A DNA stretch of 64,000 nucleotides from Acheta domesticus (Eukaryota; Arthropoda; Insecta; Orthoptera; Gryllidae): assembly GCA_031308135.1 (NCBI GenBank), contig JAHLJT010009436.1, positions 116,284,916 through 116,348,915 on the forward strand, in the 5' to 3' direction. The position numbers were made by a program, and so were the translations under genes. The notes under the pieces were generated by a model. The model was not told where the DNA came from. It saw only the letters and a program-made list of their open reading frames with translations, and ran no database searches. Positions 1 to 60,899 of the stretch are shown piece by piece; the stretch's first letter is position 1, and the number at the start of each line of letters is the position of its first letter.

Positions 1-323
1 CGTTAATTAAAAAGTCATTGTGGGTTATTAACTCAATTTTTGTCACGAAGTATCATGCTGTTCTGCCAGAAATTAAGAAAGGAAAGAAACTGTAGACAAT
101 GCCTTCAAATAATTATGATTATATTGCCATGCAATATTCCCAGCAATTATTAGTTCAATTTTTTAAAACAAAAATTTATTTTTTAACAAAATTGATATAC
201 ATGTCCGATGTTTCAGCCGCACAGTATAAGAACAGATTCAATGTACTGAATGTCTACCATTACGAAAAGGATTTTGGCGTTCCAGCAGAATGACACTATT
301 TCTCTACATCACATGGGAAAGGA
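1..323. other. AT-rich flank, no gene recognised
   Basis: Low-complexity AT-rich DNA. One short open frame (about 99-293) has no recognisable motif and could arise by chance. Nothing else is supported. Confidence 0.5.
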
Positions 324-1466
324 CCAATGATGTATATAAATACCACTAGATGGCTGACTCCGCGCTTTCCCAATAGGCGGAGGTGAGGCCGTACAGGGAG
401 TCATGTTGCACGGCAAAAGCTTTGAATGTCAATTGCAGCCCATGACAGTTCGGCAGATTTTTACGAGTGTAACACGTATACATTGTGTTTATTAACATGG
501 TTCTGTTCCATCATAAGGAAGTAAAGCTGTAGGCAACAACACATTGTCAAAATATATTTTATAATTTACATAAAACTACGAACAGCATTGACATAGTGTT
601 ACCGGAGACTGGCAAAAATGAGGACTTGTTTTTTATGATGACTTACAGGTACAAACTTCTTATAATACTTCAGAATAGATCAATTTATATGTTAATACTG
701 CACGTGACAGTAAATTATTATTACTACGGCTGCTTTATTATTAAGGATTCTTTCTCTGTTTCAATATTCCGTTTTCAAATATAAGAATAAGACGTACTTA
801 TTGTTCATGTGATTAGAAAAACTGCGTTTCACTCCAAATATCCCTTTTTTCTCTCTTAATGGATGGTTGTAAATAACTGCTGGATTTGGGAGGTGCGAAA
901 GAGATTTAAAAAGAAAACACGTAGAAAAATATAGTACATATGTACTTTTTATGGGCAGACATTTTTATTTGCATATGAATACAAAACTTTTTGCAGGAAC
1001 AAACATTCAAATAATACCTTTCACCATTGAAAGAAAATATTCACCAATAAATAATGTTTCTTTTCATTTTACGTAACACGAAATAGAACAAAACATACAT
1101 TTATAGACTAAATGAATAGATTAAAATACATGTTCAAAACATGAACACTTAAGACTAAGATTCCACTACATGATATTGTTGTGAAACCCACCTCATAGTG
1201 GTAAAACATGGATAAAACAAAGGCAAAAAATAATTGATTTCCTGGGCCAATTTTGAAAATAATAATTACATTAAGTAAAGATCAAAATGAAAACATTTAA
1301 AAAATCAAAACAAAAAATGTTTCACTAATCAGTCAAGAGAAAACTCACTACAACACACCGCTTTCGGCAATACGAACAAGGTTTTTGCCGTGCAAAATGG
1401 CGCCTTGGGTGGCCTCACCGCCAAGGCGACAGTCATCCATCTAGGAGTTTATGTATACATCATTGG
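324..1466. mobile_element. Diverged element with terminal inverted repeats of about 95 bp
   Basis: The stretch 324-425 and the reverse complement of 1376-1466 align along their length. Both begin CCAATGATGTATA, share a block like CTAGATGG(C/A)TGACT, then GGCGG.GGTGAGGCC, and end TTGCACGGCAAAA. They are clearly related but diverged, with indels. Such paired arms facing inward are typical of non-autonomous DNA transposons. The interior (about 430-1370) is AT-rich and has no recognisable transposase. Target duplications are not clear, so the superfamily is not assigned. Confidence 0.6.
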
Positions 1467-3680
1467 AAAGGACCCAGCAACGGATTAGGTGGCACAATAA
1501 AACAATTGGTTGCCAGAGAAAGTTTACAATTACAGAGAGAAAAATAGATCCAAACACCTCAACAGATGTTTGATTGGAACAAACAAAACATTTCTGGAAT
1601 TACCGTAAGTTTTGCATCGAAAGAGGAAATGGCCAAACATAAAGTGCAATGGATACAAGGCATCAGAAATTATCACGCGTGAGTTCCACAAGAAGGATGA
1701 TTTGCTACTTTCAAAAATAATTTATTTTCAGAAGATGAACTATGTATTAATGTTTTGGAAAACTATAATGAAGCTACGGAAGTCGAAATCACTATAACCT
1801 GGTACAGGTGTTGTAAATAATTATATAAATTATGTGTATAAAATCCAAGTATTTATACAATTTTAATTTATTACAGAGCACATCAAAAACGGAAAAGTAC
1901 TGGACTGTAATCATAATATACCGTATCTGTATTAACCTATTATTACTAACGTATAGTAATTTTTATATTGATAATTAAACACACGAATATGTGTATTTCA
2001 AAATTTGAAATGTATTTGATATAATGCTGGTAATCATACACTTTTTACAACATTCAATTTAAATCGACTCTGCAGCAGTTGGCCTCGACCAGTACTGATG
2101 TAGTTGTGTTATCTCCCTTCAATTGAATGTGTTGAACAAAAGAAATGTGATTGATGACAGTTAATTCACTTAAATTAATCACATACAATTTACATTAAAC
2201 ATTAATTCTGTAATAGAGTTTAATTTAAAAGAATATTGCTTAATAAATAAATAATTGTATTAACCATTATTTTGAATGTTTGAAACGGTTAAAGTTGGTT
2301 TTATTTACATTTATAGGTCATACATTATTCTAAAATTGATAATATATCACACAATTAATGAATAAATTTCTCATTATTATTAATTATGTGATTCTATAAA
2401 AACTTCAAAAGTTTAAACAGCCGAATCATGGTAAATTATTAATACCCATGGCTGAAACTTTTCCCCTGAAATTTGGCATGTATTTCAAGCATTTTAAGCA
2501 ACAGAACTTGAAAATCGAAGATGGCGTATTTTGGAAAATAAATACTGAAATTTTTTCACAATTTTTAAAATTAAAAAGTTAAAATGCACCTGATGCGCAA
2601 TGAGGTGTATAATTTCTATTCTTTTGCACTTAAATGAACTCCAAGGAATCTGAAAAATATGCAAACAAAATTTACGTAAAGAATATTACCATTACGTTTA
2701 ACCAAGTTCGTGTCGTCTGCAGATGGAAGGTCTTATTTTCATTAAAATATTTTTAATGACTGCATGCAAAATATCAAAAAGAAAAATATGAGATTGCATT
2801 TTTTTATAGTTTTACCACAAAACAAACGTTAAAAAAATTTTAGGTAATTTGGAAATTGTCGGGAATTTTTGTTGGTCGAATATGAAAAGAACGACCCATT
2901 TTCATATTTGTTTCAATTTTTGTTTCACCTATTATTTTTGTTTACAAATATCTTTGCATTTTTTTGTGTGTATTGTCTTGGAATTTTTCCTAGTATATTT
3001 TTATATGAACAATTATATTGTGTTTGTGAACATTCAAATCGTGTCAAGGTATAATTTGTTTTCGCCATTCCCCCCTCCCCCGTGGTTATTAACTATTCCC
3101 TGAGATTCTGTTCTTTCATTTGTGGTCAAATTAGTAAATTGGGCCATAAGACATTCAGGGGATGCTGCACCCGTTTTTGCAGTAAACCACTGTGTGTCGG
3201 CAAGACGTCACAACGGCCGACCTCTTATGAGCCGAGTTGGTGCAGAAGTAGCATGGAGGATGTGTTCATGGGTGTACATCGCCCGAGGGGTCGCAATGGA
3301 ATGCAAGGAAACTTTTCTGAAGAATCTACGAATTACCTTTTCAAACTAGTCCGTTTCGGAGGCTTCTCTTAATAGTTTCTCCCATTTTCATATACCAGAG
3401 AAAACCGATATCCTGATATCCCTACAATTAGTCATAACTTGATTCTGAATCAGCAATTCCCATAAGAGGTAGATAGTTTATTTTTCAAAAACATACCTAT
3501 CACAGTTCCAGGGCAGCAAAGGATTCGGAAAATGATTTGGAGGAGGAGATATTGTAAGGTTTCAGAAACAAGGTTTGACTCATCTGTAACGTTTTCCTTA
3601 GGGTACAACTCCACCGTCTCTGCAATCACATCTATCTTCTTTGACCTTGCATGTATGTTCCACGTCCACTTTTTTCACCT
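1467..3680. other. Intergenic or intronic AT-rich DNA, no gene recognised
   Basis: Mostly AT-rich with short accidental open frames. A more complex segment at about 3120-3350 has a 75-codon open frame with no recognised domain and no convincing splice context. It may be an old repeat or an exon remnant. Confidence 0.4.
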
Positions 3681-3689
3681 GCACATTTC

Positions 3690-3970
3690 GTGCCCTTTTG
3701 CCTCACATTTTGCTCCTTCCGCTTCTTCTTCGTTGCCGCCATCGACTTCGTCACGTTTTCCCTCGCCGCCGCCGCGGCACGCGCGAACACTCCGGCTGGC
3801 AAACGACCACAGCGCCCCCGCGCGTCTCCCAGAGGAAGCCCCGCGCCACGCAAACGCGCCTTGTTCGCCCCCGGCGACACAATGGCACGGGACTGCGCTT
3901 ACGAGCTTCTGCACCTTTTCGGCGAAATCTCCAGCAGCGGCGCGAAAAAGCACAAGAGAAAAGCCATTTC
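3690..3970. promoter_or_regulatory. CpG-dense island, possible promoter or first exon
   Basis: A sharp rise in G+C and CpG within AT-rich DNA. Open frames on both strands overlap here, as expected when TA-containing stops are rare, so none is called as a protein. In invertebrate genomes such islands often overlie promoters or GC-rich 5' exons, but no TATA box, initiator or splice donor could be tied to a transcript. Confidence 0.3.
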
Positions 3971-5439
3971 GATACAGGACGTTACGCGCTTCTTCAAGTA
4001 TGAAAGAGGCACGAAAGTTTAATAAATAAGGCAGTATTTACTGAACCTTTTCCCCTGAGTATCGGAAGAAGGAAAATGTCGACCTTTCTGAAAGCGTCTG
4101 CAGGTTTCTTGCTGGTCAAATAACTTTTCACGTACCCTATCTACAAATAAAGTCTACTATCACTACAATTTTAAAAACAGTATTGAACTAAATGACTACA
4201 ATGATTTACATTAACGATACGTGGTGAAAATATTAAAACGTTTTCCTCTAGAGTTGAGCAATACTAGATTTCCTTCACACAAAGATAAGTAAGGAAAACT
4301 TTCACTTGTTTATGATGTTTCTGAGTGTTTTAAGCAAATGAAATAATAGATCCTCATTTGGCACCCAAACGCATAATGATGGCAGTTTTAAAAAGAAAGT
4401 TACCATGTGTTGGAATCCCAGTACCCGTTTTTAAAACATCATTGAAACCATACGCACCTACTGGGTTGAAAAAACAATGATTGAAATACATTATACAGCA
4501 AATTAACAACTGATGTAACTGTCACCGTGGTAGCATTGTGATTTCATCATCGTATTCCAAACCCCATGTTTAGAATTTAAAATATAATTTATTTTTAACT
4601 GCGATTCCCAAACATTGCAATTTACAGATTGAATATTACGTATGATACATAACTGAGCATGAAGAATTAAGACACAATCGGTACTTCTGGACAAATTCAT
4701 CAATATCAATTTATGTAAAAGTTCCTATTTTATCCTGATTTTTGAAGTAAAAATAATTCGTATTTCTAAATTATAATAAATTCGTATTGTTTGCAAACGT
4801 CATGATGTATCATAGAACTGTGAGCATAACTTCAAAAACAACTTTTGAGATTAGAATTATCCAATTAACCACTCACAGAAAAAATTTTCTTAATGCGATC
4901 ACTAAAAAATCGAATCATTAACAATTTTACCTGTCATAAATATATTCCTTTATCATCTGTTGTAAAGTTTAAGTGTTCTTTGTACTCAATTCCTACTTTA
5001 AGAAAAAAGTGGTGAACGCAATAGCACTAAACAGAAATAAGACGTATCAAGAATATCTGGAAGTGATAAAATTAGTAATTTATTACATATGAAAAATTCT
5101 TGCAACATCTCATGTACCGGCTCTAGCTATTTTTTAAAAGTAATACCTCAACATTCAAAAACAACTTCCACCAGGGTAACTTGTAAAAATGATGCTGTAT
5201 GCGTCAGGCTGCCGCCTAGTCGCGCAGGAAAGGGAGTGTGAGAGTGCATAAGACTACAAGTATACTGACATCACCATCTGCAAGAGGTGAGGCTGCGCCG
5301 TAGTGGAACCCATCAGTTGCTAGTCCACTTCGCTTGATGTAATTTATAAGGAAGAATGGGCCGTGTACGCTTTTTTCTAATCAAGAAGTAACTTTTTCTT
5401 CATTTTCAGTCATCTCCTGAACGGAAAAATTCTCGGTAT
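3971..5439. other. AT-rich DNA, no gene recognised
   Basis: No coding region, RNA gene or repeat boundary is visible. A more GC-balanced patch at about 5190-5340 contains a run of mixed-sequence DNA that is not assigned to any family. Confidence 0.4.
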
Positions 5440-8149: not shown

Positions 8150-9660
8150 TACATAGAAAATAAAACTGATGTACCAGAAGATGAGAAAGGCCCAGTGATA
8201 CTAAGAAATGAATTTGATGAAGCGGTAGCGGAGCTCAAAGCTAGGAAGGCCACAGGACCAGATGAATTGCCAGGAAAGATAATCAAATTTAGTGAAAATA
8301 CTGTGAAAGATAATATGTTTAAACTAATATGCAAGAGCTACGAGACTGGTCAAATGCCTGAAGAATTTGCAGAAAGCAAAACCATTACAGGAAACACAAC
8401 TTCGTGCGAAAATTATAGAACAATTCCCCTAATATCTCATGCTGCCAAAATTCTCATCACAATAATAAAAAACCGAATAAAAGGTAAAATAGAACAACAT
8501 TTGGATGAAGATAAATTTGGATTTAGGTCAGGAAGAGGTACGAAAGAAGCTATCACTGCACCCAGGAGCACAGAAGAATGGATATGAACAGGGTCACGTA
8601 TGTAGCATTCATAGACTTGGAGAAAACATTTGACAAGGTTCCCTGGAAAATACTATTTCAGATCATGAAAGGAGCACACCTAGACTGGAAGGGCCGAAGA
8701 ATTATCCTACTTCTCTATAAAAATCAATTTGCAAGAATAACCATCAATAAGCAGGAGATCAAAGCGAAGTTCAGAAATGGAGTAAGACAAGGTTGCTCCC
8801 TTTCACCCTTTTTGTTCAACTTGTTTATAGAAGAAACAATCAAACAATTTAAAGGAAAAACAAAGGGCATCAAATTTAATGGTTTAGAAATACACTGTTT
8901 AAGATATGCTGATGACATAGCAATCTTAGCTAATACAAGAAAAGATTTACAGAAAATAATAAGTAGCTTCGAAAGAATTCTGCAAAGGTTACCGATCAAA
9001 ATTAACATAAAGAAATTTAAATTCATGATAATTGGGAAAGATAAAAAACTATAGATCAAATAAAATAATGTTACATACAACAGAAATAGAACATGTACAC
9101 AACTTGTTACTTAGGTTGCACTTTCACCGAACACAATAAAAGCACGACAGAAATAAGGAAGTGAATTACACTAGTAAAGAAGTCGTTCCTAAATAAAATA
9201 AATTTGCTAACAAATACCAACCTAAATTTGGATATTAGAAAGAAATTTCTGAAAAGTTATGTCTGGAGTGTCCTATTATAAGGATGTGAAGGATGGACGT
9301 TTTCAAAAACAGACGGGAGTTGTTTAGAAGCTTGTGAGATGTGGTTGTGGTGAAAAATACTGAAGGTTTTCTGGACTGAAAAAATTCAAATAACGTGATT
9401 TTAGAGAAAGTGAAAGAGAATAGATCTCTACTACAAACCATTAGGAACAGGTAAGCAAAATCATTTGGATATATTTTTAGAAATAATCAATTCCTAATCA
9501 CAATTTTATACTGTAAAATAGTTGGAAAAAGAGGAAGAGGGAGACCTAGAATAAAAATTTTAGAACAACTACAAACCGAACAACATTTGTGAAATTAGTA
9601 GGATGAAAAGGCCAGCAGAAGACAAAATGTCATAGCGGCAGCGACAAGGCACTTTTTGGC
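8150..9660 (+). pseudogene. LINE reverse transcriptase and C-terminal region, broken
   Basis: The RT begins with KARKATGPDELPGKIIKF (8237 onward), followed by YRTIPLISHAAKILITII and FGFRSGRGTKEAI. A frameshift or stop lies near 8587. The frame then resumes with YVAFIDLEKTFDKVPW (motif A), NGVRQGCSLSPFLFN (motif B) and LRYADDIAILAN (motif C, YADD, about 8900-8940). A stop follows at about 9054. The C-terminal part, with RKKFLKSYVWSVL and KRGRGRPRIKI, continues to about 9660 through several stops. These are hallmark RT motifs; the frame is not intact. It belongs with the endonuclease at 6835-7630. Confidence 0.8.
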
Positions 9661-21589: not shown

Positions 21590-23252
21590 TCACGCCCACC
21601 GCCCACCGCTCACTGCCCACCGCCCGCCGCCCGCCGCCCACCGACCCCGCCCGCCGCCCACCACTACCGCCCATCGCCCACCGCCCACCGTCCACCGCCC
21701 ACCGCCCGCCGCCCGCCGCCCACCGCCCACCGCCCCCGCCCGCCGCCCGCCGCCCACCGCCCGCCGCCCACCGCCCACCGCCCGCCGCCCGCCGCCCACC
21801 GCCCGCCGCCCGCCGCCCGCCGCCCGCCGCCCACCGCCCGCCGCCCACCGCCCACCGCCCGCCGCCCGCCGCCCACCGCCCGCCGCCCGCCGCCCGCCGC
21901 CCGCCGCCCGCCGCCCGCCGCCCGCCGCCCGCCGCCCGCCGCCCACCGCCCACCGCCCACCTCCCACCGTCCACCGCCCACCGCCCGCCGCCGTCCACCG
22001 CCCACCGTCCCCGCCCACCGCCCACCGCCCACCGCCCCCGCCCGCCGCCCACAACCCACCGCTTACCGTCCGCCGCCCGCCGCTCACCGCCCACCGCCCA
22101 CCTCCCACCGTCCACCGCCCACCGCCCGCCGCCCACCGCCCTCCACCCACCGCTCACCGCCCCCGCCCACCCCCCACCGCCCACCGCCCAACGCCCGCCG
22201 CCCGCCGCTCACCGCCCACCGCCCCCACCCGCAGCCCACCGCCCACCGTCCGCCGCCCGCCGCCCACAGCTCCCCCCCCACCGCCCCCGCCCGCCGCCCA
22301 CAACCCACCGTCCGCCGCCCGCCGCCCACCGTCCCCGCCCGTCGCCCACCGCCCACCGCCCACCGCTCACCGCCCGCCGTCCGCCGCCCGCCACCCGTGG
22401 CCCACCGCCCCCGCACGCCGCCCACCGCCCACCGCCCACCGTCCGCCGCCCGCCGCCCGCCGCCCCCGCCCGCCGCCCACCTCCCGCCGCCCGCCGCCCG
22501 CCGCCCGCCACCCGCCGCCCGCCGCCCGTCGCCCACCGTCCACCGTCCCCACCGCCCCCACCGCCCGCCGCCCGCCGCCCGCCGCCCGCCGCCCGCCGCC
22601 CGCCGCCCGCCGCCCGCCGCCCGCCGCCCGCCGCCCGCCGCCCGCCGCCCGCCGCCCGCCGCCCGCCGCCCGCCGCCCGCCGCCCGCCGCCCGCCGCCCG
22701 CCGCCCGCCGCCCGCCGCCCGCCGCCCGCCGCCCGCAGCCCGCCGCCCGCCGCCCACCGCCCTCCGCACACCGTCCAACGCCCGCCGCTCACCGCCCGCC
22801 GCTCGCCGCCCACCGCCCACCGCCCACCGCCCGCCGCCCGCCGCCCACCGCGCACAACTCACCGCCCATCGCCCTCAACTCACCGCCCACCGCCCACAAC
22901 TCACCGCCCACCGCCCACAACTCACCGCCCACCGCCAGTCACCCGCCGCCCACCGCCCACAACGCACCGCCCACCGCCCACAACTCACCGCCCACCGCTT
23001 ACCGTCCACCGCCCACCGCCCGCCGTCCACCGCCCACCGCCCACAACTCACCGCCCACCGCCCACAACTCACGGCCCACCGCCCACCGCCCACTGCCCAC
23101 CGCCCGCCGCCCGCCGCCCACCGCCCACCGCCCACAACTCTCCGCCCACCGCCCGCCGCCCACCGCCCACAACTTACCGCCCGCCGCCTACAGCCCACCG
23201 CCCACAACTCACCGCCCACCGCCCACCACCCACCGTCCACCGCCCACCGTCC
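21590..23252. repeat. Giant heptanucleotide array (CCGCCCR)n
   Basis: About 1.66 kb of tandem 7-mers, CCGCCCA and CCGCCCG, with occasional point variants (CCGTCCA, CCGCTCA, CCGCCCC). A perfectly periodic CCGCCCG run covers about 22561-22735. Because 7 is not a multiple of 3 and the unit contains no stop, every frame of both strands stays open, giving spurious frames such as 21426-23438 (proline, arginine, histidine and alanine repeats). The complementary strand reads GGGCGGY, a GC-box and guanine-run sequence. No protein is annotated here. Confidence 0.95.
22850..23235. repeat. 21-bp higher-order units inside the heptamer array
   Basis: The pattern CCGCCCA, CCGCCCA, CAACTCA recurs many times, so here the basic heptamer has been reorganised into trimers with a diverged third member. 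The transition from simple heptamers on the left to this pattern on the right is visible directly. Confidence 0.85.
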
Positions 23253-23449
23253 ACGTGTCCGCCCACGCGAGCTCCTGGACATCGCAGAGAGTGCACCTGT
23301 GTGCCCACGACTCTTCCTATGAGTCAGAAGCTCACTGAAGTGTACACACGACAACATAGGCGTGCTCACAGGAGGGAGCTAGGGGGCCGTGGCCACTCTG
23401 AAAATTTCGAAAGGGGCTCCATTTTTTGCCCTTTGTAATAAAAGTTTTA

Positions 23450-54995: not shown

Positions 54996-56620
54996 TCAGC
55001 CGGGAAGATAGAAAGTTCTAAGTACCTCAACCTCTAAACTTCCACGAAGTAAAATTTTCTCAACATCGGCGTTGTAAGACCGTTGACGCTTATGCGAACG
55101 TACGAATGAAGTGATTACAGAGTTTTATGAAATCGTGGCTATTTCTCGTTGTTGAGTAATGACGAATTGGAGGGAATGTGCTTATGATTATTGCAGTTTT
55201 AGAATGAAATATAGTTTTGTTGTTCTGCCAAAACTACTGGAATAGGACAAATATGAATGAAGTAGCAATTAGACTATGTAATTTTTGAGAATTGATTTCT
55301 GTTTTATTTTTGAAGGGTAAATTAAATAGTCGAGTGTACCTTCACATGAGAAATGACATTTCATTATTCACTGGGGCTGAACTCTGTCCCTGCCAGAGCT
55401 GCACCAATATTAGTTTATCAGAGGAATCCATTACAGGACAACTGTTCTGACATACTATAATAAAGGGCCAGTCTGACGAAAAGAAGTTAGTGAAGTTAAT
55501 GTTAATACATTTTATTTAAGAATTTTAAAAGCGACTTTCTCAGAAATCATTTTTTATTTCTTTTATTATCTTTAAAGTTCCTTTTTCTGCTCTGTTGCAC
55601 GTGATTTTACTGAATAACAACAACAAATACACATTCCCATTTCCACACAAGCATGGCCACATGAATGTTTTCGAGTTCTCTAAGTAAAACTACATTATAT
55701 AGCCCTTGAATAATATTATAAATTGAACAAAGAAAAATATAAATAAATAAACTATTTAATGTTTGAAATTTAAACATTAATATTAATTTTTGACATTAAC
55801 AAACTAAAATATTGTTGAACAAATTTAAGGACTCTTGAGCTCATGCTTAGTCTGCTTTTGGATTTTTAATCCACCCCTGAGTATGAGTGCAGTTTTTTGG
55901 TCACATTTACTATACTCAAATTGAATCCTAGGCCGAATTGATAGCGATTATCTGGGGTGCAGTTCCAATCGGAACCATCTTTACAGCTTCATTTTTGATG
56001 TTGAATCTCCCGATAGGCCGCGTTTCCGCTGATCAAAAGCTGATTCTCCCTACGTTTTGTTGACATTTCAAAGGTGGTAAGGTTAATTTTAAGAACACAT
56101 GCTGGCCGATGTTTCGCGGGATTACGGAGATGCATAAAAATATCGGTTGACAAGGAGGATAGTTTTGTGTGTAATCTTCCTTTAGGAATTTACATTATGA
56201 TATTTTGCTCGATACTAATGTTTTTTGAAAATCAGATGGATGTGTTTAAACGTCAGTAGACGTGTGATTCTATTTCTTTAGGCATTCCTTTACCGATATG
56301 TGGTTGTTTAAGTGTGATACATCGCATAACTGCCACGTGCTGTTTCTGCTTCCATTCATTGACTACTTTACTGTCGCCCTACGGATCGTAGACGTGCAGG
56401 TTATTGTCAATACTATCACAAATGAAATTTGCGAATCGTGATACTTCGCAGTCACCAATGACCCTCAAGCGGAGGTTATTAGTTCATATGTTTGCCACGT
56501 GCTGACTTTCAGACTTTTATGGGCTTGCATCATACAATTTCTTACTATTCGTTATTGTATTCTAGGTACTGAGTACGATAGGGAGACATCAACAAAAATG
56601 CATTTCACCAATGCGTTTAT
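54996..56620. other. No gene recognised
   Basis: AT-rich sequence without recognised coding or repeat structure. Confidence 0.4.
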
Positions 56621-56623
56621 AAC

Positions 56624-56667
<44 letters not shown>
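56624..56667. repeat. (AAT)n target tract, left of the R4-like element
   Basis: About 14 AAT/TAA units immediately before the element. A second TAA tract lies at its 3' end. Confidence 0.95.
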
Positions 56668-56668
<1 letters not shown>

Positions 56669-56773
56669 TCCACCTAGGGAGTACACGACCTTGCAGTTGG
56701 TGGTGGAGCTTGAGTACCCCCATGAGCCTTAAAGCTATGTCAGTGGTAGCCTAGCTACCGGTGGGGCCTCCCT
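56668..56773 (+). ncRNA. Candidate HDV-like self-cleaving ribozyme at the 5' edge
   Basis: CTCCACC at 56668-56674, the very first bases after the TAA tract, pairs exactly with GGTGGAG at 56702-56708. The next AGGGAG (56676-56681) pairs exactly with CTCCCT (56768-56773). These two helices cross as P1 and P2 do in HDV-like ribozymes. ACC/GGT at 56688-56690 and 56699-56701 could be P3, and CCCCA/TGGGG (56718-56722 and 56762-56766) P4. A catalytic cytidine in the P4-P2 joiner could not be placed with confidence. HDV-like ribozymes are known at 5' ends of R2 and R4 elements. Confidence 0.5.
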
Positions 56774-57172
56774 TGCTGAATGGGTTGAAGGTGAGGGGTC
56801 AGACGAAGAAGTACTCCATTTTGAGGAGAGTGGGAAGTAAGTAGAGAGGGAAGGGTCATGAACCTTTGGACTTCCTGTTGTCGGCCCATAGAGGGTACAG
56901 GAGAGAAACTGGTTTGGCACACCAGGCCACTGATTAGAGTGGAGGCCCGAACCTTGCATTAGCCAGCGAAGGAGGCTGCCTTCAGCAGTCAGTGAAAATC
57001 CCGTAGGGTTTAGTAATGCCGACTGGCGATCGGAGGGACCCCTTGCTGGGCCCTGCGGGGGGATGCCCCGAGGCCACTGTGGGTCGCAGTAACGGATGGC
57101 AGGAAACAACCCGAGGGTTAAGTGTGATCTGTGAACTCAAACTTGCGTCCTGCGAATCTTCAATTCAAACCA

Positions 57173-60100
57173 ATGAGCAAAATGGATAGAACAAGCAATG
57201 TAATGAATCTTAACGTGCCTTGTTCTACCAATGTCCCATACCTGCTCAGAAACCGAGCTAATGTCACCTTGTCGACGTCTGGCCATCCCACGGATGCTAG
57301 TCCCAGGGACCCAGAGCCGGCAGTAGCTCGAAGCCATCGTCAGAGATGGACCCGGGATGAATTAAAGGAGGTGATGTGGTGCTTTTACTACGCAAAAGCG
57401 AAAAATGGGGGCTCTGAAATAGAAGTTTTCAAGGTATGGAGAGAGCGGAACCCAGATATGAGACCTACCCTAGACTCAAAGAAGCTTGCCAGTCAACGAC
57501 GATACATACTCAGCAGTGGAAAATTCACAGCAGATCAACTTGCTGACATTGAGAGAAATGCGGAATATGTACTTCGCTCGAACAATCCACATGACGAACA
57601 TGTAGAACTTGAAAATGATGATCCCGTGGAAGGTTCATCGCTTTCCAGTGAAACACACGTCAGTGGTGAAAACTCATCTGGCAATGAATTACACGATAAG
57701 GACATGATGCGAAATCTCCTTCGGCGCGAGATAGAAAGAGTTAGTCAACTTCCGTTTGAATCTCGCGAACCGTTGAGGAGAATATACGAAAATGCCAAAG
57801 CTAAAAGAGTGATAGAAACAGTGAATTCTATCTTAAATGAGGTGGTGGAGACCCCAGGCAGAGATCTAGATATTACTGAAATCAATCACATCATATATGC
57901 AACTGGATATCTAGTATCTCAGATAATTTTGGGGCCAGCCAAGAACACCGACGGCCGACAGCAAAACAGAGTAAACAGCTCTGTACCCCCATGGATGAAC
58001 AGAATTATGAAACGGATAGCCGACACCCGGCGTGAAATATCATTCTTAGCTGAGGCATCTTCTAAATCAACGCACACCTCTAAAGTTCAACGAAAAATAT
58101 TCAATGTTGAACAAAAATACCAAATTGAAAATGACACCAGCAGGCTAATGGTAGTTGAGAAGCTAAAAGAGAAAATTCAAGCATGGGCTCAACGAATAAG
58201 AAGGTACAAACGTAGAATAGATTTCCGTGTACAGAACCGGTTGTTTGAAACAGACGCGAAGAGATTCTATCGCAATCTGACTCAAAAACCGAATGGCAAA
58301 GCTGTTACTCCTTCAAAAGATGACGTCGAAGCATTTTGGGCCGGAATCTGGGAAGAGAGCAGATCCTACAACAAAGACGCATCTTGGCTTCAATCTGAAG
58401 TTGATGCTGCCGATGAACTTGTAGAAACAGTGGAAGATGTTCACCAATTCTCGGAAGAGGACCTCTTCCAAGCAATTAAGAACATGGGAAACTGGAAGTC
58501 CCCCGGGATTGATAAGATCCAGATTTATTGGATTAAGAAATTAACAGCAATACATTCTCATCTAGCAAAGGCTGTTAATAAAATTTTTGAAAACCCAAAG
58601 GAAATCCCGGAATGGCTCACACGCGGCATCACGTATTTGCTACCCAAAGCGGGAGACAGCTCTTTGGCGAAGAACTACAGGCCAATTACTTGTCTGCCAG
58701 TACTGTACAAAGTTATAACTTCAGCTATAGCTGACAAAATGTATAGACATCTAGATAAGAATCATCTAATGCCAGCTGAACAAAAAGGATGTCGTAAAGG
58801 CTCTTATGGGTGTAAGGAAATCTTGCTACTGAATAAAGTCATCTTGAATGATGTAAAGAAACGCAAACGTAATTTGAGCATGGCTTGGATTGACTACCAA
58901 AAGGCCTTTGATAGTGTACCACACGATTGGATTTTGAAGACCCTGGAGATCTATCGATTTCATCCTAGACTTGTTGAGTTTTGCAAGGCTAGTATGAAGT
59001 CGTGGAGTACCAGGTTACTAATCCACAGCGGAAAGGAAGCAGTAGAAACCAGAAGTATTCAGATTAACAGGGGTATTTTTCAAGGAGATTCACTATCCCC
59101 TCTGCTGTTTTGCATTAGTTTGATCCCACTATCGAGACAGTTGTCGCAAGCTGACTTTGGTTTTAAGCTCCATGGTGATGAAAGGCCAGTATCACATTTG
59201 TTTTACATGGATGATCTGAAAGTGTTTGCCAAGAATGAAGCGATTCTCTCCCAAATGCTGTCTGTCGTGAATGACTTTAGCAATGACATCTGCATGAAGT
59301 TTGGTCTTGACAAGTGTGCAAAAATCAATTTAAAAAGAGGGAAACTCACAACGTCTGAGAACATTGAAATTGATACGCACACTGTGATTCAAGATCTTGA
59401 GCCAGGTAAAACTTACAAATATCTGGGCATTGAAGAATGTGAAACTATCTCGAATGACAGAATGAAAGAGAGAATTCGTAGGGAGTATTATAGAAGAGTG
59501 AGACTGGTCCTGCAGTCCGCTCTGAATTCCAGGAATAAAATATCTGCAATAGGTAGTTTGGCGGTACCTGTAGCCGAATACAGTTTTGGACTAGTGGACT
59601 GGACTGAGCAAGAAATTCGCACCATGGATCGAAAAACCAGAAAACTGCTGACAATGCATCATGTTTCCCACCCTCGAGCTGATATACATAGACTTTATGT
59701 GGCACGTAAGGAAGGAGGAAGAGGCCTCAGACAAATTGAGGCCTCCTGGCACAACGCAATAGTCGGGTTGGGTAAGTATGTAGTCAGCCATCAAGACGAC
59801 CCTCTAATGAGGCAGGTCATGAAATCTGACCGAAGAATGGGAAACAGAGGCATTGTTAGTGTAGCAAGAAACATTGCGAAGAAAACTAGGCAAGACACGT
59901 CGAATAACACAGACACTGAACTTCTGATGCTGCTAAACATGAAGTGTGAGACACAAAAAATGTTAAAGAAATCGTGGAGAGACAAACCACTCCACGGTCA
60001 ATACCTAAAAAGAATGGACAAGGTGCAGATCAATAAAGATCAATCATTTATGTGGCTTAAAAGGGGAAGGATGAAGCCAGAATCGGAAGCACTTGTAATA

Positions 60101-60736
60101 GCTGCCCAAGATCAGGCCTTGAGAACACGACATTATGAGAAAGCGGTTCTCAAAATTTCCCAAGATGACAAATGCCGCATTTGCCTGGAGCAAGTAGAAA
60201 CCATTGATCATATTGTCTCAGCTTGTCCAATCCTAGCAAAGACCGAATACCTTAAAAGACATGACAGGGTGTGTAGCTACCTCCACTGGCAGATCTGTAC
60301 CGCCCTCGAAGTTCCAAACACATGCCCCAAGTGGTACGAACACTCACCGAAACTGGTGACGTCTGTTGGATTGTGTACGATATTGTACGACCAACAAATT
60401 CAAACTGATCGCACGATAGCGGCAAACAAACCGGATATAGTTATCCGGGATTTGGCCAAAAAATCGTGTTTACTTATCGATGTTGCTGTACCTTGCGATC
60501 AAAACGTCGTTACCAAGGAGGCAGAGAAACGTCTTAAATACAAGAGTTTGGAAATCGAGATCAGCCGAATGTGGGGCGTAAAAGCACAGGTCGTCCCGAT
60601 AGTTATCGGAGCTCTGGGATTTGTTCCGCAAAATTTGAGTAAGAACTTGTCTAAACTCCCAGGTAATTCAAAAGACTGGGAAGTGCAAGAAATTGCTTTA
60701 TTTGGAACAGCCCACATTTTGCGTAAAGTATTGTAG
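57173..60736 (+). CDS. R4/Dong-type reverse transcriptase-endonuclease polyprotein
   Basis: Makes the enzyme for target-primed reverse transcription into TAA repeats. The frame opens after a TGA at 57125. The first ATG is at 57173, giving 1187 residues (a GTG at 57131 would add 14). Residue numbers below count from 57131. A Myb-like region (RWTRDELKEV...) lies at about 72-127. The RT covers about 440-770: YRPITCLPVLYK at 516, motif A WIDYQKAFDSVPHDW at 586-600, GIFQGDSLSPLLF at 648-660, YMDD at 692-695 and YKYLGI at 762. A CCHC finger (C1015, C1018, H1027, C1032) precedes a restriction-like endonuclease with PDIVIRD at 1101 and LLIDVAVP at 1114-1121. Every expected block is present, with no interruption. 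It is the only clearly intact gene in the window. Confidence 0.9.
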   Translation: MSKMDRTSNVMNLNVPCSTNVPYLLRNRANVTLSTSGHPTDASPRDPEPAVARSHRQRWTRDELKEVMWCFYYAKAKNGGSEIEVFKVWRERNPDMRPTLDSKKLASQRRYILSSGKFTADQLADIERNAEYVLRSNNPHDEHVELENDDPVEGSSLSSETHVSGENSSGNELHDKDMMRNLLRREIERVSQLPFESREPLRRIYENAKAKRVIETVNSILNEVVETPGRDLDITEINHIIYATGYLVSQIILGPAKNTDGRQQNRVNSSVPPWMNRIMKRIADTRREISFLAEASSKSTHTSKVQRKIFNVEQKYQIENDTSRLMVVEKLKEKIQAWAQRIRRYKRRIDFRVQNRLFETDAKRFYRNLTQKPNGKAVTPSKDDVEAFWAGIWEESRSYNKDASWLQSEVDAADELVETVEDVHQFSEEDLFQAIKNMGNWKSPGIDKIQIYWIKKLTAIHSHLAKAVNKIFENPKEIPEWLTRGITYLLPKAGDSSLAKNYRPITCLPVLYKVITSAIADKMYRHLDKNHLMPAEQKGCRKGSYGCKEILLLNKVILNDVKKRKRNLSMAWIDYQKAFDSVPHDWILKTLEIYRFHPRLVEFCKASMKSWSTRLLIHSGKEAVETRSIQINRGIFQGDSLSPLLFCISLIPLSRQLSQADFGFKLHGDERPVSHLFYMDDLKVFAKNEAILSQMLSVVNDFSNDICMKFGLDKCAKINLKRGKLTTSENIEIDTHTVIQDLEPGKTYKYLGIEECETISNDRMKERIRREYYRRVRLVLQSALNSRNKISAIGSLAVPVAEYSFGLVDWTEQEIRTMDRKTRKLLTMHHVSHPRADIHRLYVARKEGGRGLRQIEASWHNAIVGLGKYVVSHQDDPLMRQVMKSDRRMGNRGIVSVARNIAKKTRQDTSNNTDTELLMLLNMKCETQKMLKKSWRDKPLHGQYLKRMDKVQINKDQSFMWLKRGRMKPESEALVIAAQDQALRTRHYEKAVLKISQDDKCRICLEQVETIDHIVSACPILAKTEYLKRHDRVCSYLHWQICTALEVPNTCPKWYEHSPKLVTSVGLCTILYDQQIQTDRTIAANKPDIVIRDLAKKSCLLIDVAVPCDQNVVTKEAEKRLKYKSLEIEISRMWGVKAQVVPIVIGALGFVPQNLSKNLSKLPGNSKDWEVQEIALFGTAHILRKVL

Positions 60737-60838
60737 AGGCACTGATAGTCACCGAATCTGCTCCTTAGGTAGCTAGTTGCAACCTGGAGTAGATTTTATA
60801 TTCAGCCGACTCATAAGATCTTTAGTCGTGATGTAATG
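60737..60838 (+). other. 3' untranslated region of the R4-like element
   Basis: About 100 bases from the stop codon to the TAA tract. There is no poly(A). The element's 3' end is taken as the last non-repeat base before the TAA units; the exact base is ambiguous. Confidence 0.6.
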
Positions 60839-60880
60839 GAATAATAATAATAATAATCGCGATATGAATAATAATAATAA
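60839..60880. repeat. TAA tracts at the 3' edge
   Basis: Two AAT/TAA runs (about 60839-60857 and 60868-60880) separated by TCGCGATATG. They represent the split target microsatellite or the element's 3' repeats. A small stem, TAATCCCG/CGGGATTA with loop CATGA, overlaps its end at 60878-60898. Confidence 0.8.
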
Positions 60881-60899
60881 TCCCGCATGACGGGATTAT

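Follow-up and report, generated by a model that had tools for sequence, protein, structure and literature searches.

A full-length R4/Dong-type retrotransposon in a TAA microsatellite of Acheta domesticus, a member of a young and abundant family

Retrotransposons of the R4/Dong type are the closest described systems to the element considered here. Dong of Bombyx mori, which belongs to the R4 clade, is reported to insert in TAA repeats, and its RNA is described as cutting itself at the TAA/element junction by means of an HDV-like ribozyme (PMC3774820). The R4/Dong elements reported from Darwinula and Pediculus encode a reverse transcriptase and an endonuclease together with an N-terminal Myb/SANT-like region, and their target is given as (TAA)n (PMC7998251). 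The R2 elements known from Bombyx, zebra finch and turtle are similar in protein plan and have 28S rDNA as their target.

A stretch of 64,000 nucleotides of the Acheta domesticus genome (the window) contains an element that can be compared with each of these. The TAA-repeat target is common to it and Bombyx Dong, and a ribozyme candidate lies at the same spot, the 5′ junction, at which the HDV-like ribozyme of Dong is reported (PMC3774820). With the Darwinula and Pediculus elements, as far as these are described (PMC7998251), it has the reverse transcriptase, the endonuclease and the (TAA)n target in common, whereas the N-terminal Myb/SANT-like region is only a possibility in the window element; its family is separate from theirs, the nearest full-length protein found (P0001) being 52% identical. 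The R2 proteins are alike in plan and predicted fold and provide the closest solved structures, but the target differs, the two are split in the reverse transcriptase (RT) tree, and the fold alignments have identities of 16–18%. With a probability of about 0.9, the locus represents a full-length R4/Dong-type element with an unbroken frame, present in thousands of copies and likely moving by target-primed reverse transcription; the frame, its motifs, the two ends, the TAA setting, the near-identical sister copies and the purifying selection are direct observations.

An initial annotation made from the sequence had placed the element at 56624..60898, and comparison with sister copies has refined this to the 4,172 bp listed in Table 1, both ends of which recur in 18 of the 20 copies that were fetched whole. 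The TAA repeats noted on either side at that stage are present as two tracts, the downstream one consisting of six AAT units (60840–60857), then CGCGATATG, then five further AAT units (60867–60881). Apart from these flanks, the 64-kb window contains one other tract of at least four TAA-type units, of 12 bases only, and the element occurs in it just once. The full 5′ untranslated region was matched by all 40 candidates scored, from 828 first-look candidates. The predicted RNA fold of 56667–57172 has a z of −2.7, and that of 60733–60860 is not unusual (z −1.2). No relatives of the element were found among viral contigs, and Rfam matches of TAA repeats in the element and the window to the bacterial sRNA CrcZ and others were far below their cut-offs and were rejected.

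Table 1. Coordinates of the element, its flanking tracts and its observed or predicted features in the window
Feature	Position	Strand	Details
5′-side TAA tract	56619-56667	+	14 uninterrupted TAA units touch element
Full-length R4/Dong-type element	56668-60839	+	4,172 bp; 3′ edge ambiguous by ~2 nt
5′ untranslated region	56668-57172	+	505 nt
HDV-like ribozyme candidate	56668-56817	+	Descriptor scan; predicted
P1 (predicted)	56668-56674/56702-56708	+	7 Watson-Crick pairs
P2 (predicted)	56678-56684/56811-56817	+	7 pairs
P3 (predicted)	56688-56690/56699-56701	+	3 pairs
L3 (predicted)	56691-56698	+	8 nt
Single ORF	57173-60736	+	1,187 aa plus stop, counted from first ATG
N-terminal helical domain (predicted)	57353-57583	+	AlphaFold2 helices 61-76, 82-92, 102-115, 120-137
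Reverse transcriptase core RVT_1	58643-59431	+	Pfam E 5.5e-29
CCHC knuckle C-X2-C-X8-H-X4-C	60173-60226	+	Sequence; all four residues invariant in the 57-protein alignment
Restriction-like endonuclease motif KPD...D...K	60428-60538	+	Sequence; alignment of 57 proteins
3′ untranslated region	60737-60839	+	103 nt
3′-side interrupted TAA tract	60840-60881	+	Read from sequence

The stop-free open frame (57128–60736) comprises 1,202 aa, and the length counted from its first ATG, at 57173, agrees with the uninterrupted frame of about 1190 codons that had been annotated. The RT (YMDD), CCHC and restriction-like endonuclease motifs recorded with it were recovered by the Pfam RVT_1 match and by an alignment of 57 proteins (that of the window and 56 relatives), in which the aspartates of YMDD (59204–59215) are invariant, as are P1087 and D1088 of the endonuclease motif, and K1115, K1119 and K1122 are nearly so; a Pfam zf-RVT match in the ORF fell below its cut-off. 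The plan common to the R4/Dong clade, a single ORF with a central RT, a CCHC motif and a C-terminal restriction-like endonuclease, is therefore present. An AlphaFold2 model of the full-length ORF reached a mean pLDDT of 87.4 and a pTM of 0.78, and a Foldseek search with it placed R2 entries at ranks 1–7 (E 3.8e-37 to 6.6e-29), R2 proteins also being the solved structures closest by sequence (E about 5e-32). The N-terminal helices of the model possibly correspond to the Myb/SANT-like domain, lacking zinc fingers, that marks the R4/Dong clade; Pfam gave no Myb match at the N-terminus of the ORF, and the N-terminal piece folded in isolation reached a pLDDT of only 58, too poor for a structure search.

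An HDV-like ribozyme is predicted at the 5′ junction. Its nested pseudoknot would start with the very first nucleotide of the element, which is where the RNA of Bombyx Dong reportedly cuts, and HDV-like ribozymes are described as having a reverse wobble of U and G (PMC3774820). CGAA is found three bases before P2′, which makes 56804 the candidate catalytic C. The L3 of the candidate contains this U and G in the corresponding places, and by the HDV model one of the two P1.1 pairs is absent. It is possible, if doubtful, that the fold is a chance pairing and that the 5′ end is defined by other means. The descriptor was composed after the pairing had been seen, its relaxed form matches 116 of 63,770 starts on the forward strand and 128 of 63,770 on the reverse (244 of 127,540 together), and Rfam at E values up to 5 or 10 gave no HDV-like ribozyme. 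The tight descriptor, on the other hand, matches at 56668 only on either strand of the window. An earlier, stricter descriptor had given two poor matches starting inside the TAA tract, and these were rejected. The behavior of 20 older copies bears on both readings, the 5′ strands having been fixed by the search pattern: 9 changes in 140 cells of P1′, only two of which keep the pair, with two gaps, suit chance pairing, whereas 6 changes in 140 cells of P2′, three of which keep the pair, and a candidate catalytic C kept in 17 of 21 copies including that of the window (not conserved in four) argue against it. A search with 41 nt and three mismatches allowed yielded, among the matches listed, only perfect ones. 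The ribozyme accordingly stands as a prediction.

Eighteen of the 20 other fetched copies span positions 1–4172 of the element with 98.4–100% identity to the window copy, and one (L042) is identical to it over all 4,172 bp, which indicates very recent copying and bears out the initial view that this copy is recent. Across the ORF, the 18 full-length copies differ from the window copy by 152 distinct substitutions (67 synonymous, 84 nonsynonymous and 1 stop), for which 25.2, 70.6 and 4.2%, respectively, would be expected when the transition bias in the data is allowed for (ratio 0.45, p 3.3e-7). The frame has thus been under purifying selection among copies until recently, which implies that activity was very recent. 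The 1,202-aa frame is whole in five of the 20 fetched copies (L042, L050, L051, L055 and L056); the other 15 are without it, many of them with indels that represent either true decay or assembly error. These 15 would suit a family that amplified recently and is now silent, the window copy being intact only through its youth, but the identical sister, the five whole frames and the substitution pattern, which has the frame under selection through the last rounds of copying, make silence improbable, and we infer that the family is active at present.

Two of the 20 fetched copies are rearranged. In L048, positions 1–3605 are joined to an inverted 3606–4172 without loss of sequence, the whole lying inside a TAA tract, an arrangement that resembles the outcome of twin priming, here in an element of the R4/Dong type; L057 breaks off at position 4135, after which come a tract of TTA and 47 nt of 3′ tail in inverted orientation. 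At window position 57139, G is found in 24 of the 30 copies read, and the window copy has A; the six copies with A (L009, which is the window's own, L010–L013 and L015) probably form a young subfamily.

The source genome searched (2.33 Gb in 6,511 contigs) contains 2,259 exact 23-nt 5′ ends (the reversed control gave 0), 3,326 places matching the first 41 nt with up to three mismatches, and 4,828 exact 17-nt 3′ ends; the family numbers thousands of copies. TAATAA directly precedes 1,378 of the 2,259 exact 5′ ends, and a TAA-rich tract is present at all 20 ends sampled from the remaining 881 (L059–L078, the first places listed rather than a random draw, one at a contig start having been skipped and L077 and L078 sharing flanks). 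At the other end, AATAATAATAA directly follows 2,665 of the 4,828 exact 3′ ends, and all 20 sampled from the others (L099–L118, again the first places listed and not all independent, since L110/L111 and L117/L118 share flanks) continue as TAA or AAT units, L116 having only a brief run and L099 an admixture of TTA. Copies outside TAA repeats, which the initial annotation had named as one of two findings that would speak against its reading, were not seen among those read: the 5′ junction lies in TAA at 29 of 30 loci read, that of the window included, TAA tracts surround all 18 full-length fetched copies, and the sole exception at the 5′ junction, L019, coincides with L048, whose internal inversion leaves the entire copy within a TAA tract.

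The junctions themselves vary. In 14 of the 20 copies L059–L078 it is CAA that touches the element, the TAA repeats being followed there by as many as 7 CAA; this may reflect slippage, or the carry-over of upstream sequence in RNA that was not cut. A second class of 3′ end is seen in 18 of L099–L118, where GG and then AAAA or GAAA precede TAA instead of AAT following directly.

Filled sites have a mean of 22.2 uninterrupted TAA units on both sides together (17 copies including that of the window; range 16–31), vs. 12.4 in 10 tracts without an element (p 1.2e-5). On the left side alone the mean is 13.0 units, not different from that of the empty tracts (p 0.67); on the right side alone it is 9.2, which is lower (p 0.01). 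The comparison excludes L045, L048, L055 and L057, which have a strict count of 0 units on one or both sides, and the empty tracts are among the matches listed, on small contigs, each with at least 7 units. The surplus may mean that insertion adds TAA or that long tracts are preferred. It would also suit a view of TAA as a tail that the element adds while it is reverse transcribed rather than a chosen target, as would the TAA found on the 3′ side of all 18 full-length copies; a tail alone would, however, leave no TAA on the 5′ side, where it is found at nearly every copy read, often with different sequence beyond, and this explanation is accordingly very unlikely.

Placement of the element near R2 but outside it, alongside R4/Dong-type relatives, is supported by the RT tree, by similarity and by the predicted fold. 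Besides P0001, the nearest proteins are P0002 (60% identity over 76% of the query) and the Pediculus protein P0003 (48% over 99%). Related R4/Dong-like proteins P0052, P0067 and P0096 carry the domain PF02338, an OTU-type protease. For tree building 78 proteins were chosen, seven of which, all R2-like, were dropped because they did not yield an unbroken RT core. The careful RT tree contains the window and 63 other rows; in it the window joins P0001 and P0002 with support of 100/95, and a group of 49 rows that includes the window and the Pediculus protein splits with 100/100 from 15 R2-like rows, made up of 14 of the other 23 R2-like proteins and Bombyx R2. The same picture comes from a quick 74-row tree, where support is 100 for the group of 49 and 92 for the R2-like one. 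The RT of the element is not nested among R2, and its copies sit in TAA tracts rather than in 28S rDNA, the two marks by which membership of the R2 clade was judged. The RT phylogeny proposed in the initial annotation, against R2, R4, Dong, R5 and NeSL, thus sets the window apart from R2-like rows and with Pediculus, within a sampling that consists of R2-like rows and the 49-row group; in this sampling it does not yield the other finding named there as speaking against the reading, a position outside the R4/R2 group. Since NeSL, HERO, R5 and CRE, as well as the type sequences of Bombyx Dong and Ascaris R4, lie outside both trees, the clade name rests on the target site and on the listing of Pediculus among R4/Dong elements (PMC7998251), to which P0003 is linked by species. 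That the element belongs to another endonuclease-bearing clade (R2, NeSL or HERO) and merely happens to use TAA would fit the absence of NeSL, HERO, R5 and CRE from the tree and the microsatellite targets reported for some HERO families (PMC4640811), but is very unlikely given the full-support split from R2-like rows and the grouping with Pediculus, reported as an R4/Dong species (PMC7998251). The element is a family of its own within the R4/Dong type, very young and abundant, and of a kind already known.

The contrast drawn in the initial annotation, that every other LINE in the window is broken, fits the frames that were looked at: the longest other open frame outside a minisatellite is 248 aa, and a Pfam scan of five other frames gave one RT fragment. 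This fragment, at 8527–9051, is open for 175 aa (RVT_1 E 1.5e-27). The minisatellite consists of 238 copies of CGCCCAC (21593–23254), and open frames of 579–700 aa run through it.

In the proposed mechanism of target-primed reverse transcription, the C-terminal endonuclease would nick the TAA repeat and the reverse transcriptase would copy the element RNA from the nick, a reaction suggested by similarity to R2 proteins, whose structures have been solved in that act. The predicted HDV-like ribozyme would free the element RNA from an upstream TAA transcript by cutting at the TAA/element junction, as is reported for Bombyx Dong (PMC3774820), and the N-terminal helices would probably help in target choice. 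With TAA left on both sides of each copy, the flanks of older copies could serve again as landing sites, which would give rise to strings of copies in the same orientation with TAA between them.

Such strings are found. Eight of the 20 fetched copies adjoin another copy in the same orientation (79–98% identical) across a TAA-rich spacer, the older copy lying upstream in four and downstream in four (the scan reached as far as 1.2 kb on the upstream and 1.6 kb on the downstream side); the window copy has no adjoining copy. In a second sample an older 3′ end lies upstream in 5 of 20, with an opposite-strand piece in one, and among 15 TAA tracts picked regardless of the element five adjoin it, two of them via an upstream 3′ end. 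A preference for the family's own old tails was considered and is not claimed, the upstream rates being 4/20 and 5/20 vs. 2/15 in the picked tracts; these similar rates indicate that reuse of tails fits random choice among TAA tracts. As 5 of the 15 picked tracts adjoin a copy and filled sites are longer by about 10 units, it could tentatively be suggested, although we consider it unlikely on balance, that insertions add TAA nearly equal to an empty tract, so that the family makes its own targets, renews its landing sites and has given rise to a large share of the TAA microsatellites of the genome.

The family combines thousands of copies, an identical pair among the 21 compared, several unbroken frames and an abundant simple-repeat target. 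The element is a TAA-directed relative of R2, which is under discussion as a means of inserting DNA (PMC12222951), and it offers a practical system in which to study microsatellite recognition by a restriction-like endonuclease and to ask whether an element of this kind lives off TAA repeats or makes them.
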